The position numbers and the translations under genes were made by a program. A stretch of 47,185 nt of DNA, taken from an uncultured Elusimicrobiales bacterium (GTDB lineage Bacteria > Elusimicrobiota > Elusimicrobia > Elusimicrobiales > Elusimicrobiaceae). Every line of letters begins with the position of its first letter. The stretch's first letter is position 1. The notes below the pieces were generated by a model, which made no database searches, was not told the origin of the DNA, and saw only the letters and a list, made by a program, of their open reading frames with translations. Shown here one piece after another: positions 40,777 through 47,079 of the stretch. Location of the stretch: assembly GCA_944325225.1 (NCBI GenBank), contig CALUZQ010000010.1, positions 1 through 47,185 of the forward strand. The letters run 5' to 3'.

Positions 40777-42153
40777 ATGAAAAAATGGTTAATACTCGCG
40801 CTAATGGCTGTATATGCGCCCGTATGTCTGGGGGCCGCCCCGGATAAAACCGCAAACAGTCTGTTTGCGGAGCGTGAAGAGGTGGAGGGAGAAAAGATTA
40901 CCATCGCGGACGCTATCCGCATGGCTCTTTCGGACAGCTACCAAATCATTGACGCCCAAAAGACGAAAGAAATCTATGAAGAACAGTTGGCCGAGGCCAA
41001 TTCGTATTTCTATCCGTCTTTGTCGTTGGACGGTTCTTATAACCGCGCACTTAAAAAAGGCAAAATTATTATGGGCTCCAACATTATTGAAATCGGACAA
41101 AATAACACCTATACGGCAGGGTTAAGCGGATCGTATGTGTTATGGTCCGGCGGCCAAATCCGCAATACGGCGCGGGCGGCCAAGGTGGGCGCGCAGACCG
41201 GGCTTTATAACCTGCGCCATGTGCAGGATTTAGTAACCCAGCAGGTGGTAAAGTTCTGCTACGACATTATCTACGCCGCCGCGCTGATTCATGTGCAGGA
41301 AGAATACTTGGATATCGCCAAACAGCACCTGGCCGAAGCCCAAGCCAAATATAAACAGGGGTTGGCCAGCAGCTTAGATGTATTAACCCAAAAAGTAAAA
41401 GTGGAAAATATTGAACCGCTGGTGCTTCAGGCCAAGAAAAATTTTGAACTGGGCAACTTGTATTTGCGGCAAATCTTAAACCGCGACCCGGAAGACAATA
41501 TCTATCTGACCTGGTCCGAAAAAGATTTGAAATTGCCGCTGACCCCTTCTTTGGACGAATTGTATCAAATCGCTATGGAACGCCGGCCGGAACTGGTGCT
41601 GGCTAAACTGGCGGTGGATGCGGCGCATTACAACATTAACATTGCCAAAGCGGGGCATATGCCGATTTTGGCCTTAAATGCGGACTATACTTACAACGGG
41701 GTAACCGATGTCGGGTTCCCGCAGCATAAACAGGATTATTATTGGTCCTCGTCGGCGGGGGTCAGCTTGAGCATTCCGCTGTTTGAAGGGGGCAAGGTAA
41801 GCTCTCAGGTGGCGCAGAAAGAACTGGCCTATGAACAGGCCGTAGCTGCCTATCAAAACAAGATGAAGAATGTGCGCATCCAGGTAAAAGAGGCCTGGCT
41901 GAATTTGGAAGAAGCGCGCTCGCGCATTGAAGCCACCAAGGGCGTGGTGGACCAAGCCCGCGAAAACTTAAACGCCCAGATGAAGCGTTACCGCGCGGGG
42001 CTTACCAGCCAGCTGGAAGTAAACGACGCTATTTCCAATGTGAACGATTCCGACCTGCAGTTTGTGCAGGCCGTATATGACGGGGCGATAGCGCTGTCTG
42101 ATTTAAAATTCGCCGTGGGGGCGGAGGTAGATTTGTATGAAAAGAAGAACTAA
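40777..42153 (+). CDS. TolC-family outer-membrane efflux protein
   Basis: A 458-aa protein with a signal peptide (about 1-20, ending CLGA). Two repeats of the outer-membrane efflux domain: the first with ITIADAIRMALSDSYQI and SYVLWSGGQIRNTARAAK, the second with ALNADYTYNGVTDVG, GVSLSIPLFEGGKVSSQV and QMKRYRAGLTSQLEVNDA. Long coiled-coil helices fit the periplasmic tunnel. It overlaps the adaptor gene by 17 bases. Outlet duct of the tripartite pump. Confidence 0.93.
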   Translation: MKKWLILALMAVYAPVCLGAAPDKTANSLFAEREEVEGEKITIADAIRMALSDSYQIIDAQKTKEIYEEQLAEANSYFYPSLSLDGSYNRALKKGKIIMGSNIIEIGQNNTYTAGLSGSYVLWSGGQIRNTARAAKVGAQTGLYNLRHVQDLVTQQVVKFCYDIIYAAALIHVQEEYLDIAKQHLAEAQAKYKQGLASSLDVLTQKVKVENIEPLVLQAKKNFELGNLYLRQILNRDPEDNIYLTWSEKDLKLPLTPSLDELYQIAMERRPELVLAKLAVDAAHYNINIAKAGHMPILALNADYTYNGVTDVGFPQHKQDYYWSSSAGVSLSIPLFEGGKVSSQVAQKELAYEQAVAAYQNKMKNVRIQVKEAWLNLEEARSRIEATKGVVDQARENLNAQMKRYRAGLTSQLEVNDAISNVNDSDLQFVQAVYDGAIALSDLKFAVGAEVDLYEKKN

Positions 42154-43045
42154 GAAAAGAATTGCCTGGGGGGTTGTTGTCCTGGCTTTTGTGATTGCGC
42201 TGGCAGTCATTTTTAAACCGAAGCCGGCCGGTCCGTTGGACGGTGTGGCGCGCGACGAATTTTTGGTTAAACAGGAAATCGTCCAAAAGCGTGATTTAAA
42301 GCACGAACTCTTGATGTCCGGCAGCATCAAAGCGCTGGAAGAAGCGACGCTTTTCCCGCGGGTGGAAGGCAAATTGATGAAAAACCTGCTGCGGGAAGGC
42401 GATCCGGTGAAGAAAAATCAAACCGTTTCGCTTATTGAACGCGACGAAGTCGGCGCGGTGTATGAACCGGTGGTGGTTCCTTCTACCATTACAGGCGTGA
42501 TTGGACGGGTCTATTTGGATCCGGGAGCCAATGTTACCCGCACTACGCCGGTGGCGTTGGTGGTCAACCAGGAAAAAGTGCGTATCGCCGTGGATATCCC
42601 GGAGCGCTATATCGGAGAAATTTATAAAGGGCAGTCCGCTACCCTACGCATAGATGCACTGCCCGGCAAAGAATTTGAAGCCAAACTGAGCATCATCAGC
42701 CCGGTAGTAGATTCCATGAGCCGCGCCGTGGCGGTGGAGTTCTATGCCGATAATCCCAAAGCCCTTTTAAAATCGGGCATGTTTGCCAAAGTGGATATTA
42801 CGCTGGCGGAAAAGAAGGATGCGGTTTCCGTTTCCAAACAAAGCGTTTATACCGATGAAGCAACCGGCGAAAATTATGTATTTATTCCTTCTACCGACGG
42901 TAAAACGGCGGTTCGGAAAAATGTAAAAACCGGGTTTGTAAACAGCAATTTCCTGGAAATTACCGAAGGTCTTTCCAACGGAGATGTGATTTTAGGATTT
43001 GTGTACGGGCTTAAAGACGGCAGCAAAATTGCACTGGAAAAATAA
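42137..43045 (+). CDS. RND efflux periplasmic adaptor (membrane fusion protein)
   Basis: A 302-aa adaptor with an N-terminal anchor helix (about 9-30) after a basic start (MKRRTKKR). The lipoyl-like halves are close together (ATLFPRVEGKLMKNLLREGD, VVPSTITGVIGRVYLDPG), so the alpha-hairpin is very short or missing. Then the beta-barrel (VRIAVDIPERYIGEIYKGQ) and the membrane-proximal domain. Such short adaptors occur in pumps of the HAE1 group. ATG lies within the end of the tolC gene; RBS is weak. The permease follows after 2 bases. Confidence 0.9.
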   Translation: MKRRTKKRIAWGVVVLAFVIALAVIFKPKPAGPLDGVARDEFLVKQEIVQKRDLKHELLMSGSIKALEEATLFPRVEGKLMKNLLREGDPVKKNQTVSLIERDEVGAVYEPVVVPSTITGVIGRVYLDPGANVTRTTPVALVVNQEKVRIAVDIPERYIGEIYKGQSATLRIDALPGKEFEAKLSIISPVVDSMSRAVAVEFYADNPKALLKSGMFAKVDITLAEKKDAVSVSKQSVYTDEATGENYVFIPSTDGKTAVRKNVKTGFVNSNFLEITEGLSNGDVILGFVYGLKDGSKIALEK

Positions 43046-43047
43046 GT

Positions 43048-46000
43048 ATGGAAGAAAACAATAACAATGTATTTCAGTCCCGTGAACTGGAAAGGGAGAA
43101 GATGAAACACGGCGGTTTTACCGCGGTGTTTATCCGCCGGCCGGTCGCTACGATTATGATGTGTATAGCGATTGTGGTGGTGGGTTTGATGTCTTACTCC
43201 GGAATGGGGGTAGGCATGTTCCCCAATGTGGATGTTCCCTATGTGCTGGTGCAGACTACATTGGCCGGCGCCAGCCCGGAAGAAATTGAAACTTCCGTTA
43301 CCAAGGTGATTGAAGAATCCGTCAACCAGGTGGAAGGGATTGACGAAATCAAGTCCCAAAGTATGGAAGGGGCTTCCTTGGTCAGCATTAAGTTTATGAT
43401 GGATAAAGACGGCGATGTGGCCGCGCAGGAAGTACGCGATAAAGTGGAACTCATTAAAAACGATTTGCCCGATGGGACGGAAGCCCCGGTCGTGCAGAAG
43501 TTGGATATGGATTCTATTGCGGTACTCAATGTCATCGTATCGGGCGACCGGGATATCGTGGATTTAACCGAAATCGCCAAAAAGAAAGTAAAAGAAAACA
43601 TTGAAAATATCCGCGGGGTCGGCGCCGTAACCATTGTAGGGGGCCGCGAACGCGAAATTCATATCACGGTCAATCCGCTGAAACTGTTCTCGTTAAATTT
43701 GCCGATTGGCGATGTGTCCAGCGCGCTGGCGGATCAGAATGTGGAAATCCCCGGCGGGCGCGTGGAACAGCAACACCAGGAATATACCTTGCGTATTTTG
43801 GGCCGTATTCCTACGGTGTCGGCGTTTAATGATGTGTTTATTGCCAACCGCAACGGCACTTCCATTAAAATTTCCGATATCGGCTACGCAGAGGATTCCG
43901 GCGAATACGAACGCGAATCCACCTTCTTAAACAAACGCCGTTCCGTTACGCTGGAAGTAACCAAACAATCCGGTACCAATACCCTGGCTGTTGTACAGGG
44001 CGTAAAAGATAAACTGGAAAGAATCAAACCCACCTTGCCGCAGGATATTTCCATTTCGCTGATGATGGACCAGTCCGGCAACATTAAGGCGTCCGTACAC
44101 AGCGTGTTGGAACACTTGGTGCTGGGCGGTTTCTTGGCAGGCGTAATGGTGCTTTTGTTTATGGGTTCCTTGCGTTCCACCTTTATTGCTTTCCTCGCGA
44201 TGCCTATTTCCATTATCGGTTCGTTTATCTTTATGAAGATGAGCGGATTTACCATTGATACGATGACGCTGTTGGGGCTGACGGTGGCCGTAGGTATCGT
44301 TATTGACGACGCAATCGTGATGTTGGAAAACATTTTCCGCCACATGGAAAAGTACGGCAAAAGCCCCAAAGTGGCGGCTGTGGACGGTTCGCGCGAAATT
44401 ACCTCCACCGTCGTCGCAACGACGCTTTCCATCTTGGTCATCTTCCTGCCGCTGGCGTATATGAGCGGTATTGTGGGCCGCATCGTAAACAGCTACGGGA
44501 TGACGGTGGTGTTTGCTATTGCGCTGTCGGGTATTGTGGCCTTGACGCTGACACCTATGCTCTGCGCCAAAATGCTTAAACAAGGCGAACAGAAAACGAA
44601 GCTGGACCATGCGGTGGATAATGTCAACAAACAGCTGGTAGAATGGTATATTCCCTTGTTGGATTGGGCTATTCATCACCGCAAAACGATGGTGGGGCTG
44701 GCGTTTCTGTGTATGGCGCTGTTGGTGCCGATGTTGGCGCGCGTGGGCGGGGAATTTATCCCGACCGACGACAGCGGAAAAGTGCAAATCTCGGTAGAGG
44801 CCCCGGTGGGGACCAGTTATACCGATACGCTGGATATCTTGCAGCAAATTGAAAAAGATGTCCGTCGGCTGCCGCATGTAAAAGATACCTTAATTGCCGC
44901 GGGGGTAGGTTCCAGCAGTTTTGTAACTTCCAATCCGTCCAATAAAGGGTATATCCGCATTGAATTTGAGGACCGCGAAAAACGCGAAGGAATCACGACT
45001 TCCCAGTATTTGGAAGCCGTCCGCGGGCTGATGCAAAAATATACGGGGCTTAAAACTAACTCGTATGTAGTCAGCGATACTCCTTCTTCCGGGTCGTATG
45101 ATTTGGAATTTGTTATTTCCGGGCCGGATATTGACAAACTCAGCGAATACGGCAACGCAATGATTGAACAACTTTCCAAAGATCCGCGTTTTACGGATTT
45201 GGATTTGTCGCTGGACTTGTCCAAACCGGAATACCGCGTAGTCATCAACCGCGAAAAAGCGCAGAATATGGGCGTGAAGATTTCGTCTATTGCTTCGGCG
45301 CTTCGCACGATGGTAGGCGGCGAGGACGATATTACCAAGTTCAAAGAAGGCGACGAACTGTATGATGTGCGTGTGCGCGTGGCGGAAGAATACCGCGATA
45401 CCAAAGAAGCTATCTCCGCCCTTATGGTGCCTGGCACGATCAATGGGGAGGATAAAATCCTCCGCTTAGACAGCGTGGCCGCTATTGAAGAAGGCACCGG
45501 TCCCAGCCAGATTGACCGCCATAACCGCCAGCGCCAGGTAACTGTGCAGGCCAACCTCAACGGCATTGACACGCGTTCGGCCCTGGGGATTATGAACAAG
45601 GTATTTAACCAGTTGGATGCCGGCGCCGAATATACGGGCGGGGTAACGGGTATGAGTGAAGAAATGAACAAAATGTTTATGTCCTTTATTGTGGCGTTCG
45701 TTTTGGCGTTCTTCTTTAAATATATGATTCTGGCCGCCCAGTTTGAAAGCTATACGCACCCGGTAGCCATTATTATTTCCCTGCCGTTAACGCTGCCGTT
45801 TGCGGTGCTTTCGCTGTTCTTAACGGGCCAGTCGCTGAACTTGTACAGCTTGCTGGGTATATTCATGTTGATTGGGGTCGTTAGTAAGAACGCTATTTTG
45901 CAGACGGACTATACCAACCAGCTGCGGGCCCGCGGATACGGCCGTACGGACGCTATCCTGCAGGCCAACCGCGTGCGCTTGCGCCCGATTTTGATGACCA

Positions 46001-46254
46001 CGCTCACCCTGATTATGGGGGTGGCGCCGATGATCTTCTCCAACGGGGCCGGCGCAGAACAGCGCCGCAGTTTGGCCATTGTAATTGTGGGCGGGCAGGC
46101 GCTGTCGCTGCTGGTTACGCTCTTGATGACGCCCGTTACTTATATTCTGATGGACGAATTGGGCGATTGGTTCAACTATAAGTTTAAAGGGATTCCTTAT
46201 CCGGAAGATAAAAGCAAAGACACTATTTTGCCGGAAGTTCCGGAAGAAGATTAA
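43048..46254 (+). CDS. RND-family efflux permease (HAE1/AcrB-like)
   Basis: A 1068-aa inner-membrane pump driven by protons. Twelve helices in two halves with two large periplasmic loops each. Entry signature AVFIRRPVATIMMCIAIVVVG; the proton relay Asp-Asp is in VAVGIVIDDAIVMLEN, the partner Lys in GVVSKNAILQTDY; the second half has RLRPILMTTLTLIMGVAP. The N-terminus carries about 20 extra polar residues. Last gene of the tetR operon, ended by a strong hairpin. Substrate cannot be told; drugs, bile-type detergents or fatty acids are typical. Confidence 0.95.
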   Translation: MEENNNNVFQSRELEREKMKHGGFTAVFIRRPVATIMMCIAIVVVGLMSYSGMGVGMFPNVDVPYVLVQTTLAGASPEEIETSVTKVIEESVNQVEGIDEIKSQSMEGASLVSIKFMMDKDGDVAAQEVRDKVELIKNDLPDGTEAPVVQKLDMDSIAVLNVIVSGDRDIVDLTEIAKKKVKENIENIRGVGAVTIVGGREREIHITVNPLKLFSLNLPIGDVSSALADQNVEIPGGRVEQQHQEYTLRILGRIPTVSAFNDVFIANRNGTSIKISDIGYAEDSGEYERESTFLNKRRSVTLEVTKQSGTNTLAVVQGVKDKLERIKPTLPQDISISLMMDQSGNIKASVHSVLEHLVLGGFLAGVMVLLFMGSLRSTFIAFLAMPISIIGSFIFMKMSGFTIDTMTLLGLTVAVGIVIDDAIVMLENIFRHMEKYGKSPKVAAVDGSREITSTVVATTLSILVIFLPLAYMSGIVGRIVNSYGMTVVFAIALSGIVALTLTPMLCAKMLKQGEQKTKLDHAVDNVNKQLVEWYIPLLDWAIHHRKTMVGLAFLCMALLVPMLARVGGEFIPTDDSGKVQISVEAPVGTSYTDTLDILQQIEKDVRRLPHVKDTLIAAGVGSSSFVTSNPSNKGYIRIEFEDREKREGITTSQYLEAVRGLMQKYTGLKTNSYVVSDTPSSGSYDLEFVISGPDIDKLSEYGNAMIEQLSKDPRFTDLDLSLDLSKPEYRVVINREKAQNMGVKISSIASALRTMVGGEDDITKFKEGDELYDVRVRVAEEYRDTKEAISALMVPGTINGEDKILRLDSVAAIEEGTGPSQIDRHNRQRQVTVQANLNGIDTRSALGIMNKVFNQLDAGAEYTGGVTGMSEEMNKMFMSFIVAFVLAFFFKYMILAAQFESYTHPVAIIISLPLTLPFAVLSLFLTGQSLNLYSLLGIFMLIGVVSKNAILQTDYTNQLRARGYGRTDAILQANRVRLRPILMTTLTLIMGVAPMIFSNGAGAEQRRSLAIVIVGGQALSLLVTLLMTPVTYILMDELGDWFNYKFKGIPYPEDKSKDTILPEVPEED

Positions 46255-46426: not shown

Positions 46427-46498
46427 AGGTGCGGGCGGGAATCGAACCCACGAATATCAGTTTTGCAGACTGACGCCTTACCACTTGGCCACCGCACC
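46427..46498 (-). tRNA. tRNA-Cys (anticodon GCA)
   Basis: Acceptor GGTGCGG/CCGCACC, short D stem GCC/GGC, anticodon arm TCAGT-CTGCAAA-ACTGA giving GCA, T arm GTGGG-TTCGATT-CCCGC, discriminator U as required by CysRS. No CCA is encoded; it has to be added by the CCA-adding enzyme. A TATAAT on the minus strand (46531-46526) lies upstream. Confidence 0.95.
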
Positions 46499-46570
46499 GT
46501 ATCATCAAATTGTGAATGCTCATTTATTATAGCAAAAAAAGAAGGGTTTAGAAAGAAACAAATTTAGGAC

Positions 46571-46603
46571 TTGATTTTTTGTACTTGCTGGTTATACTAG
46601 CAA
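46571..46603 (+). promoter_or_regulatory. Strong promoter with inverted repeat around the -10
   Basis: TTGATT (46571-46576), 16 bases, TATACT (46593-46598). TTGCT (46585-46589) and AGCAA (46599-46603) form an inverted repeat with the -10 box in its centre, a possible operator. Expected start near 46605, directly at the foot of the RNA structure that follows. Confidence 0.6.
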
Positions 46604-46604
46604 T

Positions 46605-46927
46605 ATGGGAGTGCCACCATCACCCGTTTTAGGGTACGCCTCTTGTAGGGGAATCGGCCTCCCAACTTTTTTGTATAGCCGGGCGCGCGAAATGCTGCCC
46701 GGCTTTTGTGCGGGTTCTTCTTTTGAGCGAAGCACGGCACCGGGGAGAGTGCCCCGGCAGTGGCCGAAATCCTAGGCATTATTCTTTTGGCTGCCGGGCA
46801 GGTGTTTCGGTTTGTTGGCTGGTTTGGCGGGAATCTCTCCCAGCCAGTTCCCCGAGGAGCCATTTACTGTATTTTTTGAAAAATTTTAGTATAATAAAAA
46901 AAAGGCCCCCAAACGGGGGCCGTTTTT
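46605..46927 (+). ncRNA. Candidate structured non-coding RNA of unknown family
   Basis: Gene-free stretch of about 320 bases packed with inverted repeats. The 5' part (46606-46666) is a three-way junction: outer stem UGGGAG(U)GCC/GGCCUCCCA, inner hairpins ACCC-GUUUUA-GGGU and CCUC-UUGUA-GGGG, followed by six U (46667-46672). Next AGCCGGGC/GCCCGGCU plus UUU (677-707), CGGC..CCGGGG-AGAGUG-CCCCGG..GCCG, CCGAAA/UUUCGG, and GGCU..GGGA-AUCUC-UCCC..AGCC. A strong terminator (46904-46927) ends it. It has no open frame with a ribosome site. I find none of the signatures of RNase P RNA, tmRNA, SRP RNA or 6S RNA. The product may be one long RNA or a short 68-base RNA ending at the first U run. Confidence 0.5.
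46904..46927. terminator. Terminator before the tRNA pair
   Basis: GGCCCCC, loop AAAC, GGGGGCC, then G and TTTTT on plus; eight T on minus. A perfect TATAAT (46890-46895) lies at its foot, the same layout as at 3687-3720. Confidence 0.88.
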
Positions 46928-46985
46928 GACGCCGGTTGTTGCCTAGGGCCAGCCCCTGGGGCTTCCGTCTTTGGCTGTTTTTTGA

Positions 46986-46991
46986 TATAAT
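46986..46991 (+). promoter_or_regulatory. -10 box of the tRNA-Gly/tRNA-Thr unit
   Basis: Perfect TATAAT 17 bases before the tRNA-Gly 5' end; -35 not clear. Upstream, 46951-46963 (AGCCCC-T-GGGGCT) is a small palindrome. Confidence 0.55.
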
Positions 46992-47008
46992 AAAGTATAT
47001 TGCCTGAT

Positions 47009-47079
47009 GCGGGCGTAGTTCAATGGTAGAACACTAGCCTTCCAAGCTTGATACGTGGGTTCGATTCCCATCGCCCGCT
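47009..47079 (+). tRNA. tRNA-Gly (anticodon TCC)
   Basis: Acceptor GCGGGCG/CGCCCGC, D arm GTTC/GAAC, anticodon arm CTAGC-CTTCCAA-GCTTG giving UCC, T arm GTGGG-TTCGATT-CCCAT, discriminator U, no encoded CCA. The second pair of the anticodon stem is a U-U mismatch. Reads GGA/GGG. Confidence 0.93.

Follow-up and report, generated by a model that had tools for sequence, protein, structure and literature searches.

The 47,185-nucleotide stretch of DNA analysed here (the window), which is contig 10 of a 1.63 Mb Elusimicrobiaceae genome that is 93% complete, carries a predicted small structured RNA of about 68 nt on the plus strand (46605-46672). With a probability of roughly 0.6, we read it as a self-contained gene for a small non-coding RNA, belonging to a lineage-specific family outside Rfam, with a three-way junction as its core, a terminator formed by the closing helix P1 and a U-tract, and a function that is probably exerted in trans through shape. 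Comparison across genomes shows a conserved promoter, a junction that begins at the expected start, a U-tract in most members, a single good copy and residence beside tRNA-Cys. The initial annotation had treated 46605-46927 as one transcribed locus and had suggested a lineage-specific RNA of unfamiliar family. The latter suggestion holds, as promoter, start, three helices and tRNA-Cys neighbourhood are kept through one genus and Rfam offers no credible match. The locus has its own promoter, a terminator and a conserved structure independent of the neighbours, the traits of an autonomous structured sRNA as judged from sequence.

The RNA is preceded by a sigma-70-type promoter, TTGATT-16-TATACT, at 46571-46598 (scan score 9 of 12), as annotated initially. 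The -35 region is joined to a conserved upstream GGNC (GGACTTGATT, 46567-46576, plus strand), and the -10 hexamer TATACT lies at 46593-46598. CTTGA followed 18 or 19 nt later by a -10 hexamer occurs in 54/55 loci, L066 being the one missed by the strict pattern. A tally of the hexamer over the 55 loci gives TATACT 46 times, TATAAT four times, TATAGT three times and TACACT once. The inverted repeat said to be centred on the -10 is found in only 9/55 loci (arm-of-5 test) and is no feature of the family. The -35/GGNC-type element also precedes a long RNA of the sister genus g15, and we claim no dedicated regulator, since the GGNCTTGA element of the promoter is not confined to the small RNA gene. 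A c-di-GMP-I aptamer lies beside the promoter pattern in 3/19 loci fetched for that pattern, all from a sister family, and this indicates no more than a promoter type in common. Genome G006 carries ten near-identical promoter-like copies (GGGCTTGACTTG, a long T-run and GGTATACT; L135, L144, L151, L156, L159 and L161-L164) that are probably a multi-copy repeat family.

The RNA folds into a three-way junction that begins at the promoter's +1, as had been proposed. Its 5' and 3' ends are placed from the promoter and the U-tract, and its extent is supported by covariance-model matches, covariation and MFE shape. The 5' strand of P1 (GGGAG-U-GCC, 46607-46615, with a bulged U at 46612) pairs with the 3' strand GGCCUCCC at 46656-46663, as indicated by fold and covariation. 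Enclosed within it are hairpins P2 (ACCC-GUUUUA-GGGU, 46622-46635) and P3 (CCUC-UUGUA-GGGG, 46639-46651), in which two-sided changes affect 3/4 and 4/4 pairs, respectively. The annotated U6 tract follows directly 3' of P1 at 46667-46672, which suggests that P1 serves as the stem of an intrinsic terminator. The MFE of -25 kcal/mol corresponds to a z-score of -2.26, and 5/200 shuffles equal it. Across the family the signal is much sharper. A sealed three-way junction is the MFE shape of 54/57 real sequences (all but L085, L087 and L093) against 21/1140 dinucleotide shuffles, a test that is independent of the model structure, though the stretches are delimited by model matches.

The initial annotation had proposed looking for compensatory base changes in homologs, and these are present in all three helices. 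In alignment A4 (57 sequences, 54 distinct), 95.4% of cells are paired and 12/16 pairs show two-sided compensatory change. The two-sided cells number 60; shuffles give 11.5 and slid controls no more than 19, and none of 500 shuffles reaches as high. Alignments A3 and A4 were fitted to the covariance model, so the pair counts on them lean towards it; RNAalifold, working on the alignment alone, recovers the same junction with 11/14 pairs compensated. The most divergent pair, L165 and L166 (1519-1586 and 1526-1593, minus strand), have replaced P1 by GGAACCC/GGGUUCC and P2 by ACGC/GCGU and have kept the pairing. Their P1 has no bulge. By our reading of the alignment, the bulged U is missing in L092, L165 and L166 and appears not to be essential. 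The first 19 aligned sequences keep GGGAG-N-GCCAC (N mostly U) and GGCCUCCC invariant letter for letter, an invariance that is also compatible with an antisense function or with a contact that depends on sequence.

A T-run of at least 5 occurs within 13 nt after P1 in 40/57 sequences and one of at least 4 in 46/57. A second, sequence-variable hairpin that may act as a back-up terminator (GCCGGGCG..TGCCCGGC TTTT, 46678-46707, plus strand) comes next, and a simple script finds a terminator-type hairpin within 36 nt of P1 in 41/55 loci. In 11/55 loci the longest T-run is only 3, and 9 of those 11 have the second hairpin by script, as if U-tract and hairpin complemented each other across loci. The expected transcripts are about 68 nt long, or about 103 nt on read-through.

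The four further stem-loops of the initial annotation stand in part. The one at 46678-46703 has position-conserved counterparts, and the rest of the stretch, the roughly 160 bp from 46709 to 46868, is absent from relatives and folds like its shuffles (z -0.78 for 46712-46868). In a BLAST search of the locus against 60 related genomes, two parts are shared: the promoter together with roughly 100 nt of RNA, and the hairpin around 46904. Within its own genome the 46709-46868 insert has no other match at E<=0.001. What was described as a long, many-stemmed locus is therefore better seen as a short conserved gene plus a species-specific insert that is no more structured than expected by chance. The strong terminator is real in the sense that a conserved hairpin lies at 46904-46921, its stem kept with changes on both sides (20/55 loci). 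It looks like an element separate from the small RNA. A transcription unit reaching to 46927 is probably wrong, given that the hairpin has a -10-like TATAAT of its own in 20/55 loci. The region 46870-46927 comprises a tRNA-type promoter (TTTTTTG-TATAATAA-like) followed directly by the G+C-rich hairpin and a T-run in these 20/55 loci, and would either yield a transcript of less than 30 nt or be a bidirectional terminator.

The covariance-model search of Rfam suggested by the initial annotation yields no credible match, permissive thresholds included. At the gathering score, cmscan reports only four tRNAs in the window, and a scan of 46500-47010 up to E 10 contains no RNase P, tmRNA, SRP RNA or 6S, in agreement with the annotated absence of these cores. 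The weak Rfam matches at 46860-46929 coincide with the terminator hairpin at 46904. At the junction, RAGATH-25 (E 2.3) is no better than chance, and we take as chance an OmrA-B match in L087 over the junction and next hairpin (E 0.018, 23.1 bits against a cut-off of 40). In the genome as a whole, 6S RNA (RF00013) was not found by a search that is positive in only 5/14 control genomes, and Hfq (PF17209) has no match in this 93% complete assembly by a search with the same control rate (5/14). Kissing of the P2 and P3 loops in the style of purine riboswitches seemed good in a GUAAA/UAUUUUAG subclade and failed overall: 30 distinct loop pairs have a mean best complementarity of 2.98 against 3.01 in shuffles.

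The small RNA is not coding, with an ATG start in only 18/55 loci and a matched length that ranges over 69-76 nt without keeping the frame. ORFs of 56 and 73 aa cross the unconserved insert and were dropped. A literature search on Elusimicrobia, Elusimicrobium and Elusimicrobiota, with most subscription journals outside its scope, found no work on small, non-coding or structured RNAs or riboswitches, and the clade name does not occur in PMC8632094, which belongs to the literature on three-way junctions and terminators.

The family is confined to one genus of gut-dwelling Elusimicrobiaceae, g1, as far as our searches reach. Covariance model R1, built from 17 sequences, detects it in 55/66 g1 genomes and in 0/24 genomes of other genera of the family; model R2, built from all 55, finds one good copy in 57/66. 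The second, weak R2 matches in a few g1 genomes (E 6e-4 or worse) are taken as chance. Over the other 274 of 340 phylum genomes, R2 gives nothing convincing. The weak matches there (E <= 0.01, 17/274 genomes) are mostly short or on both strands, and the best, 7.9e-7 in G223, matched on both strands. A weak match beside tRNA-Cys in G050 proved on inspection to be a plain terminator hairpin. The tRNA-Cys flanks of 24 sister-family genomes contain the promoter-plus-GGG motif in 0/24 cases. A sequence-pattern search returned Elusimicrobia or 'uncultured bacterium' contigs with g1 sequence in 18/19 cases, and named contigs with the element are mostly MAGs of Elusimicrobium, Elusimicrobiales and Elusimicrobiaceae, including Elusimicrobia bacterium UBA1436 and UBA1202. 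A Desulfitobacterium match (L041) has both P1 strands but lacks the inner hairpins and is attributed to chance. The viral contigs and phage records searched for the small RNA contain no match. Nine of the 66 g1 genomes are R2-negative, and six of these also have no tRNA-Cys match, likely an assembly gap (the tRNA-Cys check covers 8/9, G075 being left out). Among the others, G020 has its tRNA-Cys at a contig end, and G017 lacks the RNA although 1.5 kb of sequence 5' of its tRNA-Cys is present, which is either a true absence or a move of the gene.

The small RNA lies between tRNA-Cys on the minus strand (46427-46498) and tRNA-Gly and tRNA-Thr on the plus strand (47009 and 47113), with tuf found beyond the latter two in other g1 members. 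It adjoins tRNA-Cys in 57/57 members and is divergent from it in 52/57; in the remaining five it is turned round. A tRNA-Gly on the same strand lies within 400 nt in 39/57 loci, and some of the other 18 are contig ends. Elsewhere the 3' neighbour is a pilin gene (L012, L080, L095), another gene or a contig end, and the tRNAs are inverted or on the opposite side in some loci. On this comparison the gene appears INDEPENDENCE from its neighbours: it stays by tRNA-Cys in both orientations and irrespective of the other genes around. Just upstream of tRNA-Cys, positions 40777-46254 encode a tripartite RND efflux set composed of an OEP outer-membrane protein, an HlyD-type adaptor and an AcrB-type pump.

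The sister genus g15 has a long structured RNA near tRNA-Cys in 11/18 genomes, 384-577 nt in the ten measured (the script missed the terminator of L173). In G103 and G104, the site 5' of tRNA-Cys carries the GG[CT]CTTGA promoter; the RNA behind it opens with a junction and extends about 400 nt to a strong terminator. Examples are L121:700-1102, L116:934-1342 (minus strand) and L134:1544-1936, together with the promoter-led copies in L170-L177. Two of the long RNAs fold with z-scores of -4.1 and -5.1, and all 11 form a 5' three-way junction by MFE. Model R3, made from three sequences of a 139-nt inner domain and searched over 90 family genomes, has eight matches, all in g15: three strong ones (its own sources) and five weak ones (E 0.002 to 0.015). 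All eight lie within about 1.5 kb of tRNA-Cys. A promoter-pattern search restricted to the surroundings of tRNA-Cys added the RNAs of G107, G110 and G112. R3 has no match in the 66 g1 genomes, and the long-RNA loci scanned against Rfam (L116, L121, L134, L170, L172, L173, L174) give no credible match.

All 11 long RNAs carry near their 3' end a purine-rich SD and a conserved ORF of 8-12 codons before the terminator. The script-found ORFs read MEENSTSAG (twice), MEENSSNAG, MEDNSSMQAGWL, MDASSSIS and MEASSSIG; those of the other five RNAs were identified by reading the sequences. This stretch could alternatively form a GGAG-GAAAA-CUCC hairpin. Translation is favoured because G102 and G104 keep the acidic-serine reading where the hairpin is gone. 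The 55 g1 loci contain no SD-mini-ORF of this kind.

The g15 RNA shares with the small RNA the GG[CT]CTTGA promoter, a start of the form A(U/A/C)GGG, a 5' junction sealed by P1 and a locus near tRNA-Cys. It differs in its length, further domains and 3' ORF, and behind P1 it has in most cases a UUUGAAA-type sequence, whereas the small RNA has a U-tract. With filters off over eight loci of 20 kb in total, R2 recognises the 5' junction of L116 at E 0.0017 and does not list L121 or L134. Taken together, promoter, start, architecture and locus make common descent of the two RNAs likely, and the g15 RNA is probably a long form of the same gene.

For the small RNA itself, we propose that P1 and the U-tract terminate transcription, the 'loop' of this terminator being the rest of the RNA. 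Gene, fold and terminator would thus be one object with both ends sealed, and the RNA would be stable because of this sealing; the second hairpin would catch read-through. Less certain is its role in trans, for which the pattern of conservation points to an RNA recognised by shape, either bound to a protein or sequestering one. We favour recognition of shape over an antisense seed because selection preserves the helices and the kinds of loop although the bases themselves are swapped, even in P1.

A trans-acting antisense RNA that works without Hfq, with its seed in a loop, the junction or an opened P1 strand, is nonetheless the most serious competitor, if an unlikely one. Size, own promoter, terminator and single-copy intergenic place are those of usual bacterial sRNAs, CCUCC and GGGAG resemble anti-SD and SD, and the P1 strands are unchanged in the first 19 sequences. 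Across the genus, however, these same letters change by compensation (L165/L166), the alignment has no long conserved unpaired stretch, and Hfq was not found in the genome. We regard as quite improbable a ligand-sensing or attenuating element whose closed junction terminates transcription and whose open junction lets it read through into downstream genes. A premature end at 46672 had been suggested by the initial annotation, and in most genomes a U-tract does stand directly behind P1, while the g15 junction has none and its RNA continues. Control by a leader or attenuator requires the same gene downstream throughout, but what follows varies (tRNA-Gly-Thr-tuf, pilin, inverted tRNAs) and five genomes have the RNA turned round, which makes attenuation unlikely. 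As the downstream side is inconstant and a second terminator often follows (41/55), U6 at 46672 is more plausibly the 3' end of the RNA itself. A riboswitch match in Rfam above chance and purine-type kissing-loop covariation are likewise absent.

The short RNA could also be a decaying stump of a functional long RNA, kept by its proximity to a tRNA gene. The further domains and conserved mini-ORF of the long form, missing from the short one, would suit such a relic, but all three helices show compensatory change and the promoter is kept in 54/55 loci, signs of continuing selection, and we give the relic reading hardly any weight. More tentatively, at somewhat below even odds, we speculate that the short and long RNAs are one gene with a 5' junction core. 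The long form would be dual-function, with an 8-12-codon message (MEENSTSAG, MEDNSSMQAGWL, MDASSSIS and others) translated from a strong SD. Gain or loss of the U-tract behind P1 would make the junction a terminator or not, switching between a minimal and a large RNA, both of which would form RNPs, a kind not known elsewhere.

The independent small RNA gene that we prefer resembles autonomous intergenic sRNAs with intrinsic terminators in its own promoter, shortness, lack of an ORF, end in a hairpin and U-tract, intergenic place and restriction to a lineage. It differs from usual sRNAs in that the closing stem of a junction comprising the whole RNA doubles as the terminator stem, and in that neither Hfq nor a conserved unpaired seed was found. 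The c-di-GMP-I and purine riboswitches are aptamers of three helices round a junction, with P1 next to the expression platform. The small RNA shares the three helices and the placing of P1 beside a platform, but in the window it has no Rfam match, and L2-L3 covariation and a constant downstream gene are missing.

The gene belongs with other small structured RNA genes, and what is unusual is the possible pair of long and short forms. Rfam has no entry for this strongly conserved gene, and our literature search found no small-RNA work on the phylum. The covariance model and 57 sequences are ready for searching metatranscriptomes of the gut. Should the short and long forms be one gene, the pair would offer a clear example from nature of how moving a terminator alters the size of an RNA family five- to eight-fold.
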